From Candidatus Margulisiibacteriota bacterium (lineage in GTDB: Bacteria; Margulisbacteria; Termititenacia; Termititenacales; Termititenacaceae): a stretch of DNA of 36,180 nt. Below, one piece after another: positions 1 to 36,180 of the stretch (positions are counted from its first letter, which is position 1; each line of letters opens with the position of its first letter). The position numbers were made by a program, and so were the translations under genes. Where the stretch lies: NCBI GenBank assembly GCA_031274525.1, contig JAISQA010000028.1, positions 1-36,180 of the forward strand, written 5' to 3'. The notes beneath the pieces are model-generated. The model did not search any database. It worked only from the letters and a program-made list of their open reading frames with translations, and had not been told where the DNA came from.

Positions 1-767
1 GTGCCGCCGGAAATAGTATGCGTATGCGCGGCAAACTCGCTTAACGTACCGCCGGAAAGAGTATGCGTATGATCGCTCACGCTGGCCGCCGAACCGCTGG
101 AAAAAGTATGGCTGTGTGCTCCGCCAGTATTTATCGAAATGCCCGTGGTGCTGGAATTTACGCCATTAGTAGAACTGTATACATATGGACCATTAGAGAT
201 ATTGTTAGTGTCATTTCCTGACCTGGGTTCTGTGGTGCCGCTATAAAAACGCAGCGTATGACTGTGCCCCGGATCGGTAATGCCATGCCCATGCCCGCCG
301 CCGGACTCCACGGTACCGGTCACCGGATGTGTATGCGCACCGCCGGACGCCACAGTACCGGTCACCTGGTGCGTGTGCCCACCGCCAGACTCCACCGTGC
401 CGGTTACCGTATGGCTGTGCGCCCCGGAGCTGCTTACCGTCAGACCGCTTAGCGCATGACTATGCACCGGCAAATTACCCGTGGCCAAAGTCACGCTATT
501 GCTGCCGCCAGTGCCTCCTTTGGCCGTGCTGCCCATAATAAACTTATCCTGTAGATTCGGCGTCCGGCCCGCATCAGCATTGGCCTTGTTGCAGGCGTAC
601 CAGCCCGGTATGGTGTAGTTATCCGACCAGCCGGTTCCGTCATACATCAGGATCGTCCCCACCGGTAAAATAGTCATTATGCCTAAATTGTCTATACTCG
701 CCTGCAAACCATTCTTTAAATCAATAATATCCTGCGCCAGCATTGGCTGACCTTTAGCTATTACCAT
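1..767 (-). CDS. Phage tail-collar/tail-fibre-like His-rich protein, partial (C-terminus beyond window start)
   Basis: Read by hand on the minus strand from ATG at 767 (absent from the ORF track because it has no stop in the window): MVIAKGQPMLAQDIIDLKNGLQASIDNLGIMTILPVGTILMYDGTGW...GWYACNK...TPNLQDKFIMGS...LPVHSHALSG...HSHTVTGTVESGGGHTHQVTGTV... Collar-like GTILMYDG(S/T)GW and repeated HxH motifs; paralogous to 13082..13972. Confidence 0.8.
   Translation of the reverse strand, partial: MVIAKGQPMLAQDIIDLKNGLQASIDNLGIMTILPVGTILMYDGTGWSDNYTIPGWYACNKANADAGRTPNLQDKFIMGSTAKGGTGGSNSVTLATGNLPVHSHALSGLTVSSSGAHSHTVTGTVESGGGHTHQVTGTVASGGAHTHPVTGTVESGGGHGHGITDPGHSHTLRFYSGTTEPRSGNDTNNISNGPYVYSSTNGVNSSTTGISINTGGAHSHTFSSGSAASVSDHTHTLSGGTLSEFAAHTHTISGG
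294..419 (-). repeat. Three tandem 42-bp (14-aa) coding repeats HxHxVTGTVxSGGx
   Basis: Minus-strand translation HSHTVTGTVESGGG / HTHQVTGTVASGGA / HTHPVTGTVESGGG. Confidence 0.85.
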
Positions 768-821
768 AAGATTTCCCCTTTCTATTATATATTCTCCGCT
801 TATTATAACACATAATTAACC

Positions 822-847
822 AAACGCAATAAAATTTTATTGTGTTT
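822..847. promoter_or_regulatory. Palindromic operator candidate between divergent HTH and tail-collar-like genes
   Basis: AAACGCAATAAAATTTTATTGTGTTT: 16-bp perfect core CAATAAAATTTTATTG (827-842) plus AAAC/GTTT arms; overlaps a plausible minus-strand -35 (TTGCGT) with -10 TATAAT at 807-802. Confidence 0.5.
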
Positions 848-904
848 TGAAAATATGGAAATTATTCTGAATGGTTAAACTTTTATCTAAAATGGAGCAA
901 AAAA

Positions 905-1282
905 ATGGACCGAGAGATCACCGATAAAGACCTCAAAAATTTGATCAGCAAAAAATTAAACTGGCTGCATAAGCAACACAAGAAAACGCTGGAAGAAGCC
1001 GCCTTTAACTTGAAATTAGATTATGTTCAGTACTATATGCTGCTCAAGGGTTCCCGGCTGCCGCATCTGCTCACGCTGGTAAATATCAACAAAATTTACG
1101 GTCTGAGCATGGATTGGTGGTTCCATGATCTGGATAAATTGAAGCCCAAAGAGCAGAAAAAACTAAATAAAAAAATCACAGAATTTGAATTGATCAGCAG
1201 TTTCAATAAACTGGACGCTAACGCCCAAACCGTGGTGCTGCGCCTGCTCAAAAATTACCACAAAGAACGCAAGCACAAATAG
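905..1282 (+). CDS. Small HTH (XRE-like) putative regulator, divergent from the tail-collar-like gene
   Basis: 125 aa; KKTLEEAAFNLKLDYVQYYMLLKGSRLPHLLTLVNINKIYGLSMDWWF resembles an XRE HTH; AAAATGGAGCAAAAAAATG start context. Confidence 0.6.
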   Translation: MDREITDKDLKNLISKKLNWLHKQHKKTLEEAAFNLKLDYVQYYMLLKGSRLPHLLTLVNINKIYGLSMDWWFHDLDKLKPKEQKKLNKKITEFELISSFNKLDANAQTVVLRLLKNYHKERKHK

Positions 1283-7269: not shown

Positions 7270-8013
7270 ATGCATTTACTGCAGGCCGTAAGCGCCAGCT
7301 TTATAGTCAGCCTTATTTCTTTTGTCGGAGCGCTGGCTTTAGTGCTCAAAGCCAAATTTCTGCGGAAAATCCTGATCAGCATGGTCGCGTTCAGCGCCGG
7401 TTCGCTCATCGGCAGCGCTTTTTTGCATCTCATTCCCGAAACGCTGGCCCAAAACCCGGATTACCCGGCGGTGTTTTTTCGGGTCATGGCCGGCTTTACT
7501 TTTTTCTTCCTGCTGGAAAAAGTCTTTTACTGGCGGCACTGCCATGACGGACACTGCGCCGTGCACGCTTTTTCGTACCTCAATCTTTTCGGCGACGCCG
7601 CGCACAATTTTCTCGACGGCCTGATCATAGGCGGCAGTTTTTTTCTCGATCCGGCGGTCGGCTGGATCACCACGCTGACCATACTCACACACGAGATCCC
7701 GCAGGAGCTGGGCGACTTCGGCGTGCTGCTCTACGGCGGTTTAAGCAAACACCGGGCGCTGTTCTATAATTTTTTATCCGCGCTGACCGCGGTGGCCGGC
7801 ACGCTGCTGGGCTTTTTCTTTTCCGCGCGTTTTCAGGCTTTCACCGGCGCGCTCCTGCCTTTCACCGCCGGAGGCTTCATCTACATAGCCAGCTGCGACC
7901 TGATCCCGGAGCTGCACGAAGTCAAAGACCAGAAACAATCCCTGCTGACCATGCTGACTTTTATGCTGGGCCTCGCGCTGATGTCTGCCCTGACGTTCTG
8001 GCCGGCAGTTTAA
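7270..8013 (+). CDS. ZIP-family metal transporter
   Basis: 247 aa membrane protein; GDAAHNFLDGLIIGGSF and THEIPQELGDFGVLLYGG are ZIP TM4/TM5 signatures. Confidence 0.9.
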   Translation: MHLLQAVSASFIVSLISFVGALALVLKAKFLRKILISMVAFSAGSLIGSAFLHLIPETLAQNPDYPAVFFRVMAGFTFFFLLEKVFYWRHCHDGHCAVHAFSYLNLFGDAAHNFLDGLIIGGSFFLDPAVGWITTLTILTHEIPQELGDFGVLLYGGLSKHRALFYNFLSALTAVAGTLLGFFFSARFQAFTGALLPFTAGGFIYIASCDLIPELHEVKDQKQSLLTMLTFMLGLALMSALTFWPAV

Positions 8014-8768
8014 TTTTTCTCCACCAAATACTTCCAGTACCGCCGGGGCATAAAATGTCTTTGCAATTTTAGATTTCTGCGCTCCTGAATGGCAATGTTT
8101 TTAAAAAATATTTTCCAGAGCTCCTGATAGCCCGGTTCCGCGGCGGAATACTGCTCCCGCGCGTTCTGAATATCCACAGCGGAAAAGACCCGCACTTCCC
8201 CCTGCCGGCAGACCAGCGCCATACTCCGCCGCGCGTCGTGGATGATCCAGCTCTGGCCGCCCAGCCGCGCGCGAAAATGCCCGGCCAGCAGCGGCAGCAC
8301 GCAGTGCTCCGGCTCTACCGCCCCGTAAAAACTGCCGTCTTTTAATTCCTGCAGCCGGAGCAGTCCTTTCAGCCGCTCGGCCTCGCGCGTGACTTTTTGC
8401 AGACAGGCTAAAGCCGCGCTGATGACCGGATCGGCATAATTGCCGTTCAGATCACGCCCGGCGGACAGGGTGTGCCTGATGTAAGCAAAGATAATTTTTT
8501 CTTTCCGCGGTTCGCCGGACAAATAACAATACTGGACTGTAGAAAAAACAGCTCCACCCAATTTTTTTAATCCGGCGCAGACTCTCTCCGCTTTAACCGT
8601 GTCCGTTGCTATATATTGCTCCGCCGCAAACAGGCTTTTGCAGTAATTATCTGCAGACGCAATTTCCGGCAAAATTTTTAAGCGGTACGCCTCAAAAACA
8701 CAGGTCAGCAGCCCCTCCAGACTGCCATCATACAAGAACACCGCGTCTCCGCCCGGCAGCCCTGTCAT
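8010..8768 (-). CDS. TIGR03915-like putative DNA metabolism protein
   Basis: FLYDGSLEGLLTCVFEAY... and coupled overlap with the radical SAM gene upstream. Confidence 0.75.
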   Translation of the reverse strand: MTGLPGGDAVFLYDGSLEGLLTCVFEAYRLKILPEIASADNYCKSLFAAEQYIATDTVKAERVCAGLKKLGGAVFSTVQYCYLSGEPRKEKIIFAYIRHTLSAGRDLNGNYADPVISAALACLQKVTREAERLKGLLRLQELKDGSFYGAVEPEHCVLPLLAGHFRARLGGQSWIIHDARRSMALVCRQGEVRVFSAVDIQNAREQYSAAEPGYQELWKIFFKNIAIQERRNLKLQRHFMPRRYWKYLVEKN

Positions 8769-12695: not shown

Positions 12696-12989
12696 TTACA
12701 AGTCTTTAATCTGCGCCTGTAATTTCCGCAGAGTTTTTAAAACTTCCGGCTTACCCTGCGGCCCGGCATTAAGCGGCTGGCCCGGCAGGAGAGAAACCGG
12801 TTTTATGCCCAGAGCCGCGGCAATTTTATAAAGAGCCCTGATAGTGAGATTACGCCGGCCATGTTCTATCTGGGAAAGATAAAAATAACTCAGGCCGGCC
12901 GCAAAAGCAATTTCTTCTAAAGAACTGCCCTGCTCCTGCCTGACCGCGCGAATTGTTTTCCCGATATGCTCCAGCAGTTCATCCGCCAT
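12696..12989 (-). CDS. XRE-family HTH regulator
   Basis: IGKTIRAVRQEQGSSLEEIAFAAGLSYFYLSQIEHGRRNLTIRALYKIAAALGI. Confidence 0.9.
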   Translation of the reverse strand: MADELLEHIGKTIRAVRQEQGSSLEEIAFAAGLSYFYLSQIEHGRRNLTIRALYKIAAALGIKPVSLLPGQPLNAGPQGKPEVLKTLRKLQAQIKDL

Positions 12990-13019
12990 AATTAACGCCC
13001 TTTTTATTTATTCTATGCG

Positions 13020-13067
13020 TTGACAAACTATAGTTGTATAAACTATAATTTATGATATATAGTTTGT
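13020..13067 (+). promoter_or_regulatory. Sigma-70 promoter of tail-collar-like gene with overlapping AAACTATA operator repeats
   Basis: TTGACA (13020-13025)-N18-TATAAT (13044-13049); AAACTATA at 13025-13032 and 13040-13047, inverted TATAGTTT at 13058-13065. Confidence 0.75.
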
Positions 13068-13081
13068 GAGGGGGCAGTTAT

Positions 13082-13972
13082 ATGGCCAGTAATTACACAG
13101 GAAACTACACAGGAATAAGCGCCGGAGGGCAGATGAAGGCTGCGGATGTGACCGACGCTTTGAACAAAATGGAGAAAGTGGAATATAAAGTAACAGAGCT
13201 GAGTTCCAGTTCTACCGACACCCAGTATCCGTCGGCCAAAGCGGTGTATACCGGTCTGGCCGCCAAAGCCGCGGCCAGCGACGTGAGTGCTTTATCCGGC
13301 ACAGTGACCGCTTTACAAACGACGGTCAGCGGCTTGCAGGACAAGCTGCCCGCAGGCACTATCCTGATGTATGACGGCTCCGGCTGGGAAAATAATAAAA
13401 CTCTCGTCGGCTGGTATAAATGCGACGGCAACAACGGTACGCCCAATCTAACCAATCTGTTTATCCGGGGCGGAGCCAGCAGCGGCGGCAGTGGCGGAGC
13501 GGACAGTCAAAGCATAACTTTAACCACTGCCAATCTACCGGGCCACAGTCATAGCGTTACTGACGCGGGGCACAGTCATACAGTTACGGACAGCGGGCAT
13601 ACCCATACCGATTCCGGGCACTCCCATTCGCACACGCACGACACCCACACCGGATCAGTACAGGGATACGACGCAGGAAACACAAATATTTTTGGCAACG
13701 CCAGCGGAGTATTCTCTGCGAGCGGGAATGCCAATAGACAGCAATCCTCTGATGGCGGCGCCAGAGACGCTTATTACAAGCTGTCTCTTTCCGCCGGTCA
13801 TTCAACTGACTCTACTTCCGGCAAGGCGGCGATATCCAGCAACGCTACAGGCATCACAATTGACAGTAAAACCACCGGCATTTCTCTCGGCAATACCGGC
13901 TCCGGGGCGGCTTTCACCGTAAACACTGTCCCCGCTTATTATGCGCTGATTTATATTAAAAAAGTCGCGTAA
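13082..13972 (+). CDS. Phage tail-collar/tail-fibre-like His-rich protein
   Basis: STDTQYPSAKAVYTGL; GTILMYDGSGWENNKTLVGWYKCDG; LPGHSHSVTDAGHSHTVTDSGHTHTDSGHSHSHTHDTHTG; C-terminal VPAYYALIYIKKVA as in tail-fibre tips. Confidence 0.82.
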   Translation: MASNYTGNYTGISAGGQMKAADVTDALNKMEKVEYKVTELSSSSTDTQYPSAKAVYTGLAAKAAASDVSALSGTVTALQTTVSGLQDKLPAGTILMYDGSGWENNKTLVGWYKCDGNNGTPNLTNLFIRGGASSGGSGGADSQSITLTTANLPGHSHSVTDAGHSHTVTDSGHTHTDSGHSHSHTHDTHTGSVQGYDAGNTNIFGNASGVFSASGNANRQQSSDGGARDAYYKLSLSAGHSTDSTSGKAAISSNATGITIDSKTTGISLGNTGSGAAFTVNTVPAYYALIYIKKVA

Positions 13973-15279: not shown

Positions 15280-16059
15280 TCACTGTACATTATACAAAAA
15301 CCCTGTCAGCGGCGAAGAGGCCTGCGCCTGACCGGCCTGCACCTGACCGGCCAGATAGGCCGCACGTCCGGCCTGCACGGCCAGACTAAAAGCCCGCGCC
15401 ATTTCCACCGGGTTGTCCGCCAGAGCCACGGCGGTATTGACCAGCACGGCGTCATAACCCATTTCCATAGCCGCGGCGGCCTGCGAGGGCGCGCCGATAC
15501 CGGCGTCTACCACCAGCGGCACCCCGGTGATCTCCTGCCGCAGAACTTCCAGCAAATGTCTGGTCTGCAAACCCTGATTACTGCCGATCAGCGCACCCAG
15601 CGGCATTACCGCCGCCGCTCCAGCCCTGACCAGCGCGCGCGCCGCGTATAGATCGGGGCTCATGTACGGCAGGACGACAAAACCCTCCGCGGCTAATATC
15701 TCCGTAGCTTTGATCGTCTCCTGATTGTCGGGCAGGAGATATTTACTGTCGTTGATGATCTCGACTTTTATCCAGTCTCCAGCGCTGGCCGCCCGCGCCA
15801 TTCTGGCAAGGCGTACCGCTTCATCGGCATTGCGCGCGCCGGAAGTATTGACCAGCAGCTGGACATTTTTCGGCACAAAATTCAGGATATTTTCGGCGCC
15901 CTGCTTAATGTCCACGCGGCGCAGGGCCACGGTCACAACTTCCGTGCCGGACTGCTCAATAGTCTCGCGCATCGCCTGCTTACCGGCAAATTTGCCGGTG
16001 CCGAGAAAAAAGCGATTGGTTAATTTCCTGCCGCCGATAACCAGCTCATTCATGTCCAT
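15280..16059 (-). CDS. thiG: Thiazole synthase
   Basis: [73 protein letters not shown]. Confidence 0.95.
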
Positions 16060-17047
16060 TCCTCCGGGCAGACCCGCAGGTCTGCCCTGCCTGCCTTTGT
16101 ATCATCTGCAAATATTCTCCTGTATCCTCTGCGCTCCTGACCACGCCGATAGTGTCCGCACCGGCCGCGATAACTTCGCCGACATTTTGTAAATTTATCC
16201 CGCCGATAGCCACGAAAGGCAGCTCAATATGCGCGGCGACTTCGCGGACATACTCCAGCCCCACCGGCTGGCGGCCGGGTTTGGTAGGAGTAGTCCAGAC
16301 CGGCCCGGCGGAAATATAATTCACGCCCAGCTCCACGGCCTGCCGCGCCTGCGCGAGATTGTGCGTCGTCCAGCCGATGATTTTCGCCGCGCCGATGATC
16401 TTCCGCACGGCAGACGGTTCGGTATCCTGCCCGATATGCACGCCGTCCGTATCCGCGCGCAGGCACAGTTCGGGATAATCATTTATGATCAGAACAAAAT
16501 CATATTTTTCTTTTAATTTTTTAACCGCTAAAAGTTTTTGATAAATAACCTCCTGCTCCGCTTCTTTATCGCGCAGCTGGACAATACGCGAGCCGTTTTT
16601 TACAGCCTCAATTAAAACCGCCGGATCAGCAGAAATAACATACACATCATGGTCAAAAGGTCTGACCAGCTGGATTTGGGCGGCAATAATTTTTTCTAAA
16701 TCATAAACTCTGTAACGCTGATCTTTTATGGCGCTGCCCCGCGCACAAAATTCTTCCAGTACCCGCAAAGCCTCCGCCGCGCGCTTGGCATTGGCCGCGA
16801 CTATCTGGCGCAGATCCGCCCGGCGGGGCACCGGTCTCTCTCTGGCCACATCCGCGTCCGAGCCACGGCTCCCGACCAGCAGAGCATCCGGAATATCGAC
16901 CAAATCTTTCAAGGAGTGGCGAATGGTTTTAATTTTGTCGGTTAATTGAATATCGTCCAGAATAAAGCGGCTGATATCCTCCAAGACCCGCAGACCTTCG
17001 CGGGCACGGTTGACATTGGCGTCCAGTAAACGCTGGATTTTCGGCAT
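16046..17047 (-). CDS. thiE: ThiD2-ThiE fusion: thiamine-phosphate synthase with N-terminal ThiD2 domain
   Basis: N-term [26 protein letters not shown]...[12 protein letters not shown] (ThiD2 type); C-term [17 protein letters not shown]...[15 protein letters not shown] (ThiE). Confidence 0.88.
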
Positions 17048-17123: not shown

Positions 17124-17870
17124 TTAACTGAGCCCGAGCAGCGCGGCAAAGTCCTCTTCCGGCAGGTCAAAAACTCTGGCCAGCAGGCCGGAGCGCAGAT
17201 GCTCCTCGGGAGCGCCGGAAATTATTTTACCTCTGTCCAGCACCAGCAGTTGTTCGCAAAACCGGCAGGCCAGCCGCAGGTCATGCAGCACCACAAGGAC
17301 TGTCCGGCCGCTGGCGGCCAGCCGCTGGAAATAACGCAGAATATCCAGCTGATGATGAATATCCAGATGATTGACCGGCTCATCCAGCAGCAGCACCGGA
17401 GTATCCTGCACCAGCGCGCGCGCGATCACCACCCGCTGGGTCTCGCCGCCGGAAAGAGTCCGGAGCCGCCGGCCGGCCAGCTCCGTCAGCTGAAGCTCCG
17501 CGGTGATTCTGGCAAGCAGTTCTTTTTCCCCGCGGCTCGGTCTCTGCCAAAACCAGTGATGATAGGGCGCGCGGCCGAGGCCGATCATTTCGCAGACCTT
17601 GAACTGCGGATTCAGGACATTGAGCTGCGTGACCACCGCCACTTTTCTGGCGCGCTCTCCGGGTTTTAATTTCGTCAGATCCTGGCCGTCCAGCAGCGCC
17701 CGGCCGCCGGGCCGCGGCTGATAAAATCCGCTCAGGAGCCGCAGGAGCGTCGTCTTGCCGCTGCCATTCGGCCCGACCACGCCGATAAACCGCCCGGAGG
17801 GAATAGGGAGCGTGACCGCGTCCAGCACCGTCTGCTTAAAAGCATATGAAACGTTTTCCAGCTGATACAT
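17124..17870 (-). CDS. ABC transporter ATP-binding protein (FecE/BtuD-like)
   Basis: GVVGPNGSGKTTLLRLLSG, LSGGETQRVVIARALVQDTPVLLLDEPVNHLD. Confidence 0.9.
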   Translation of the reverse strand: MYQLENVSYAFKQTVLDAVTLPIPSGRFIGVVGPNGSGKTTLLRLLSGFYQPRPGGRALLDGQDLTKLKPGERARKVAVVTQLNVLNPQFKVCEMIGLGRAPYHHWFWQRPSRGEKELLARITAELQLTELAGRRLRTLSGGETQRVVIARALVQDTPVLLLDEPVNHLDIHHQLDILRYFQRLAASGRTVLVVLHDLRLACRFCEQLLVLDRGKIISGAPEEHLRSGLLARVFDLPEEDFAALLGLS

Positions 17871-35881: not shown

Positions 35882-36180
35882 ATGGCAGAGAGGTTGAATC
35901 CGTTGAATGATTTTTTGTTCATGAAATATATGGGGGAGAAAGGGGACGAGACACAGCTTTTGTCATTTCTCAACGCTGTGTTAAAAAGAACCGGGCAGGA
36001 TAAATTGCAGAGTGTGGAAATTCTGGAAAACAAGACGCTGGCGGCGGAGACCATCGATGCGAAGACCGGTATTCTGGATATTCTGGCTGTTACGAACGAT
36101 GGCGCTAAAATAAATATCGAGGTGCAGCTCTGCAATCTCGGAGATATGGACAGGCGCAGTTTGTTTTACTGGAGCCGGGA
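35882..36180 (+). CDS. Rpn/PD-(D/E)XK-family nuclease or putative transposase, partial (runs off right edge)
   Basis: Hand translation MAERLNPLNDFLFMKYMGEKGDETQLLSFLNAVLKRTGQ...LDILAVTNDGAKINIEVQLCNLGDMDRRSLFYWSR; not in the ORF track because it has no stop in the window. Confidence 0.85.
   Translation, partial: MAERLNPLNDFLFMKYMGEKGDETQLLSFLNAVLKRTGQDKLQSVEILENKTLAAETIDAKTGILDILAVTNDGAKINIEVQLCNLGDMDRRSLFYWSR

Follow-up and report, generated by a model that had tools for sequence, protein, structure and literature searches.

Phage-fibre-like genes paired with divergent HTH genes form a dispersed repertoire in a Margulisbacteria genome

The window analysed here, a stretch of 36,180 bases that constitutes the complete contig C40 of a draft Candidatus Margulisiibacteriota genome, contains two units in which a gene for a phage-tail-fibre-like protein is divergent from a gene for a small helix-turn-helix (HTH) protein. 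The two units are probably members of a set of about 40 cassettes that together provide the genome with a repertoire of binding proteins derived from phage fibres, each repressed privately. The genome of the window (G000) comprises 1.61 Mb in 92 contigs and is 92% complete. ORF calling was simple, and all genomes compared are draft assemblies.

The two units of the window

Unit A lies at the left edge of the window, which falls within its fibre gene. The partial minus-strand gene that the initial annotation had proposed at this edge is a real ORF (3-767, minus strand). It encodes 255 visible residues of fibre A, a collar-domain phage-tail-fibre-like protein, and is cut by the contig edge at its 3' end. 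The first 30-119 bases of the window have no second occurrence in the DNA examined. Fibre A matches the PHROG tail fibre families phrog_2097 (E=2e-11) and phrog_8469 (E=3e-10) and is, as had been claimed, paralogous to fibre B of the second unit, with 41% identity (E=2e-18).

A divergent intergenic region of 137 bp (768-904) separates fibre A from the gene of repressor A (905-1282, plus strand), a putative XRE-type repressor of 125 residues. The region contains a candidate operator, a 26-bp imperfect palindrome AAACGCAATAAAA/TTTTATTGTGTTT at 822-847 (shuffling p=0.03), which was not found in the other units. Repressor A scores just under the Pfam cut-off for HTH_3 (22.5 against 23 bits; E=1.2e-4). 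Despite this score, its predicted structure has a clear XRE fold, with a five-helix XRE domain followed by two C-terminal helices (pLDDT 81). Profile comparison matches it to XRE repressors of known structure, ImmR, DdrO and C.BclI with E-values down to 1e-8, and fold comparison of the predicted model indicates similarity to controller proteins, such as C.BclI, and to antitoxins.

Unit A is adjoined by an ORF for an N-terminal piece of PriA (97 residues, 1284-1577), and a helicase body of 516 residues is encoded at C26:23186-24736. Disruption of priA by unit A was ruled out, as a short stand-alone PriA N-terminus is also present in six of seven relatives; the split is therefore probably ancestral.

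Unit B is located inside the window. Repressor B is a plain HTH_3 protein of 97 residues (12696-12989, minus strand; 47.1 bits against the cut-off of 23), and its gene adjoins mutL. The two regulators had been described as non-identical, and they belong to different HTH subfamilies. The intergenic region of 92 bp (12990-13081) contains a sigma-70-like promoter of fibre B that agrees with the consensus at 12 of 12 positions (13020-13049). A candidate operator spans 13023-13067 (p=0.05) and is composed of the arms ACAAACTATAG (13023-13033) and ATATAGTTTGT (13057-13067). One arm overlaps the -35 element and the other lies just beyond the -10 element, a placement that would be expected for repression by occlusion. 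Fibre B (13082-13972, plus strand) is a collar-domain phage-tail-fibre-like protein of 296 residues that matches the tail fibre family phrog_8469 with E=4e-22. Candidatus Margulisiibacteriota relatives with matches to fibre B include Candidatus Termititenax aidoneus.

The right contig edge lies within another ORF (35882-36178), which begins MAERLNPLNDFLFMKYMGEKGDE and which we take, by reading, to belong to the Rpn/PD-(D/E)XK transposase-nuclease family. A copy of 85% identity adjoins a fibre unit at C35:7488-7781.

Across the genome, the fibre partners are 180-480 residues long and consist of a short module at the N-terminus, a stalk that is coiled or made of repeats, a conserved collar, and a C-terminal tip that varies. 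The collar core reads GTILMYDG...GWY.C...TPNL...F and is accompanied by HxH repeats and a conserved C-terminal YY.VIYI strand. Among solved structures, the family profile matches that of a phage tail fibre (PDB 9qgo, E=1e-13), and the match to Pfam PF21939 (Gp10_C) stays under the cut-off (22.9 against 27 bits). The model of the fibre monomer is poor (pLDDT 60), and a fold search with it returned weak matches only. The fibre N-termini show no apparent signal peptide, and comparison with Pfam, PHROG and profiles revealed no toxin-like domain. The collar core, the HxH repeats, the variable tip and the C-terminal strand are those of phage tail fibre and collar proteins (PHROG 8469 and 2097, PDB 9qgo, PF21939). 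The units differ from phage tail fibre genes in being present in some 40 copies per genome, in having a divergent repressor for each copy, and in lacking tail genes beside the two copies of the window.

Genome-wide pairing and distribution

The initial annotation had suggested that the HTH and fibre genes form a recurrent unit, and a genome-wide search with fibre A was strongly positive. It recovered about 42 ORFs and a 5' piece at C55:3-380. Six fibre pieces stop within the gene at contig edges. The ends of C37, C35 and C42 share 117-119 identical bases, so some of these pieces are probably halves of one gene, and the true number of fibre genes in G000 is 40-43. The genes are dispersed on more than 30 contigs. 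Housekeeping genes surround both units of the window, and inspection of translations reveals similar neighbours at other loci.

Where the upstream side of a fibre gene is visible, it faces a divergent small XRE-type HTH gene in 39 of 40 cases, usually at a distance of 70-235 bp. These comprise 36 pairs of a first survey, two recognised by an HTH profile (C33:10257 and C12:3866), and the pair on C55; the sole exception is the fibre gene at C59:85342-86082. Under an assumed and generous chance of 5% per gene of having a divergent HTH gene, 38 pairs among 39 would arise with p of about 1e-48, which excludes coincidence. The HTH genes fall into several subfamilies, which indicates one arrangement kept with many regulators rather than 40 copies of a single cassette.

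Three further observations concern single loci or related genes. The fibre gene at C56:80204-81057 (L033:12205-13058) is frameshifted at an A9 tract, an isolated case of a pseudogene or an assembly error. HTH genes of the main subfamily occur without an adjoining fibre at L144:4562-4942 (C54) and L145:4045-4455 (C4), which may be empty sites. A second class of genes, mostly divergent from similar HTH genes, encodes proteins that start with MTNAY and contain long Cys-rich repeats; its members are found at C13:29168-32000 (L148:3169-6001), C4:8199-10088, C15:8094-9479, C15:19068-20549, C29:20153-20485 and C69:6876-7124. The member on C13 is followed by genes for a protein of 105 residues and for a radical SAM maturase of the CXXX-repeat target type (TIGR04115, E=1e-61).

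The repertoire is characteristic of the family. Among 75 genomes of the phylum searched, all eight genomes of the window's family contain fibre matches, 14-53 each, whereas nine of the other 67 contain one to three and the rest contain none. The divergent pairing is kept as well: when an HTH profile built from G000 was applied to four relatives, all 36 sampled leading fibres (22 in G041, eight in G037, five in G038, and one in G036) were divergent from an HTH gene, with one pair in G038 spaced by 654 bp. In the genus-mate G036, one divergent HTH gene heads a row of six fibres (L103:4458-8399), which would be switched together, and another row, of at least two fibres, lies at L104:2-813.

Since repressor genes and tail fibre genes are both common in phages, the units might be remnants or cargo of ordinary prophages. 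This origin is highly improbable given some 40 dispersed copies in one two-gene arrangement, the housekeeping genes around the units of the window, and the occupation of the same locus by some units in different genera. Moreover, 50,697 phage records yielded distant and partial matches only, and viral contigs yielded one weak collar match. No clustered phage or tail genes were seen beside the units, as judged from the ORFs of the window and from inspection of translations at other loci.

Conserved intergenic DNA and exchanged fibres

Inverted repeats that exceed those of shuffled sequence at p<=0.05 are present in the divergent regions of 20 of 36 units, with a combined p=7e-11 by a test that used single-base shuffles only. 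The inverted repeats differ from pair to pair. When 19 significant palindromes were compared with all other units, the resemblance was no better than to shuffled sequence. The intergenic DNA is conserved between genera: for HTH pairs taken as best matches at >=58% identity (58-88% identical), the combined p for intergenic conservation is 3e-9.

The regulators share with XRE/Cro-C1 repressors (ImmR, DdrO, SinR, C.BclI) the HTH fold with C-terminal helices, the divergent target, and the promoter palindrome. In contrast to those systems, dozens are present per genome, each apparently with an operator of its own, and G000 has no ImmA/IrrE-type protease. Derepression by such a protease, as the matches to DdrO and ImmR would suggest, was ruled out by the absence of Peptidase_M78 from G000 and from the four most complete genomes of the family.

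The initial annotation had called the units diversifying, and the fibres are indeed mosaic and exchanged under conserved regulators. Fibres beside matching HTH genes of different genera rank anywhere from first to nearly last within the fibre set of the other genome, in a comparison for which the units of G037 and G038 were sampled in part only. At HTH identities of 68, 80 and 86%, for instance, the partner fibre ranked 23 of 24, 14 of 24 and 4 of 8, respectively. At C59:31539, even the N-terminal type of the fibre differs from that of the unit with the matching HTH gene in another genus. Some orthologous sites keep a related fibre, so exchange is not universal. The order lysC, HTH, fibre, SNF2 helicase is common to G000, G041 and G037, and the fibre at this locus of G000 ranks first of 24 in G041. 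A fibre gene convergent with serS likewise occupies the same locus in G000 and G037.

The strongest evidence for the movement of fibre frames between sites comes from within G000, where fibre segments of 91-94% identity adjoin unrelated HTH genes of different subfamilies. Such blocks are shared by C12:6 and C56:80566 (93% over 481 bases), by C44:823, C53:6141 and C88:5500 (92-93% over 270-283 bases), and by C35:2969 and fibre A of the window (C40:3; 91% over 189 bases). Several of them begin 0-17 bp upstream of the ATG, which would fit a junction at the ribosome-binding site or the start codon. Two other routes to variation were ruled out in G000. Slipped-strand phase variation is not indicated by homopolymer tracts, which number 0.77 per kb in fibres against 0.66 in other genes. 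Diversity-generating retroelements, which also diversify receptor-binding tips of phage type, would include a reverse transcriptase, and the genome has no match to PF00078.

The description of the units as mobile holds in part. Relative to the window, units in other genera identify occupied and empty sites: a unit of G041 sits between homologues of the ORFs at 7270-8013 and 8010-8768, which in the window overlap by 4 bp at their 3' ends, and a unit of G037 sits between homologues of two neighbouring ORFs of the window, those at 16046-17047 and 17124-17870. The REP-like repeat AAAGGGACAGGT has sites on C56, C12, C28, C29, C31 and C85 and is found at the ends of several units; of 13 independent sites, 8 are no more than 300 bp from a unit (p about 7e-8). 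The only match in G000 to a Y1 transposase, the REP-associated type, lies between two units (C56:9189-9479). No recombinase is borne by the units, and no target-site duplication was established at them. The repeat is at best one contributor to mobility, for most units have none nearby.

These repeats and the Y1 transposase, together with the resemblance of the predicted HTH fold to C.BclI-type controllers and antitoxins, could point to a selfish two-gene module of the toxin-antitoxin or restriction-controller type, kept by addiction or by REP-like transposition. However, the partner is a fibre without a toxin-like domain, and most units have no repeat nearby. The two genes of a selfish pair should also travel jointly, yet these units exchange the fibre and retain the HTH gene and the intergenic DNA. 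A selfish module is accordingly a distinctly unlikely account of the pairs.

Proposed function of the repertoire

As cassettes of a privately repressed repertoire, the units may be viewed as sockets in which three parts are fixed, namely a small gene for an XRE repressor, the intergenic region between the divergent genes, and a palindromic operator that is private to the unit and covers the promoters. Most likely, the HTH protein would repress its own gene and the facing fibre gene, and loss of repression would switch on one fibre. Because the operators differ from pair to pair, we propose that each fibre is separately inducible and that one or a few fibres are made per cell. The sockets would be inherited over long periods, with recombination between fibre genes replacing or rebuilding the resident fibre. 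A junction that often lies at the ribosome-binding site or start codon would place the incoming fibre under the resident repressor. The fibres may be displayed at the cell surface or secreted, and their variable tips may bind partner cells or competitors.

Clues to the location of the fibres come from elsewhere in the phylum (L159-L164), where the collar domain has no HTH gene beside it and occurs in ORFs of 1,056-3,407 residues or in proteins of about 260-280 residues. Several of the collar proteins outside the family have signal-peptide-like N-termini, which suggests surface display. The fibres might instead be anti-phage decoys or blockers that derive from captured phage receptor-binding proteins and are normally repressed, a role consistent with the phage-like homology, the large and variable repertoire, and the provision of one repressor for each fibre. 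Yet beyond the family this collar domain is found at the end of large proteins that have the N-termini just described, and a decoy function appears very improbable.

The genome might also encode, at another locus, a phage-derived tail particle (a tailocin or contractile injection system) for which the fibres supply alternative receptor-binding tips. Homology connects the fibres to those of phage tails and, weakly, to a Photorhabdus injection system fibre (PDB 8on5), and G000 contains a baseplate module at C86:1-4990, with a similar one in G037. However, the tail sheath (PF04984) was not matched in any of the eight family genomes, with positive controls, and Baseplate_J is present in two of the eight only. 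It is absent from G036, which is 100% complete and has 16 fibre matches, and from G041, which is 95% complete and has 43. The module on C86 also carries a fibre of its own that is unrelated to the repertoire. Service as tips of such a particle is thus unlikely.

The C86 module (L156:3-4990) is partial, encodes a hub, a wedge, Baseplate_J and a tail fibre, and adjoins housekeeping genes. The locus on C32 of G037 (L157:1770-9355) is a probable prophage tail module, in which a gene for a fibre of 719 residues is followed by a reverse transcriptase gene (phrog_1423, E=3e-116); the two are possibly a diversity-generating retroelement.

A repertoire of privately repressed binding proteins has partial parallels in known systems. 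Antigenic variation by cassette exchange, as in the pilin genes pilS/pilE and in mycoplasma vlhA, uses one expression site and a set of silent copies. The features in common are a large paralogous family of surface proteins (a location that is presumptive for the fibres), mosaic genes, and an exchange of the coding part within a fixed regulatory context. Here, in contrast, there are dozens of expression sites, each with a putative repressor of its own. Streptomyces XRE-DUF397 pairs of the WhiJ/BldB type are likewise many, paralogous and scattered, and their partner is a small regulator, whereas the partner here is a fibre that is exchanged independently. The component families are known. For their arrangement, with dozens of family-wide sockets per genome, conserved regulators and exchanged fibres, no description was found in the open-access literature, which also yielded no account of collar genes or tail fibre genes from Margulisbacteria or from symbionts of termites.

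We tentatively suggest, as a reading that goes beyond private repression, that a phage fibre gene was domesticated into tens of sockets with specific repressors and operators, and that the exchange of frames at the start codon has produced an individually addressable cell-recognition library in a small symbiont. Some 40 fibre genes of 240-350 codons and their regulators take up roughly 3% of a 1.6-Mb genome, so the family invests heavily in this repertoire. Gene turnover in which the socket is retained and its coding part exchanged is unusual. The dozens of repressor-operator pairs, diverged in nature, would also offer ready material for work on the avoidance of cross-talk between related regulators. 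Attachment to spirochetes and protists has been reported for Candidatus Termititenax, and with a library of privately switched fibres the choice of partner by such cells would become a testable question.
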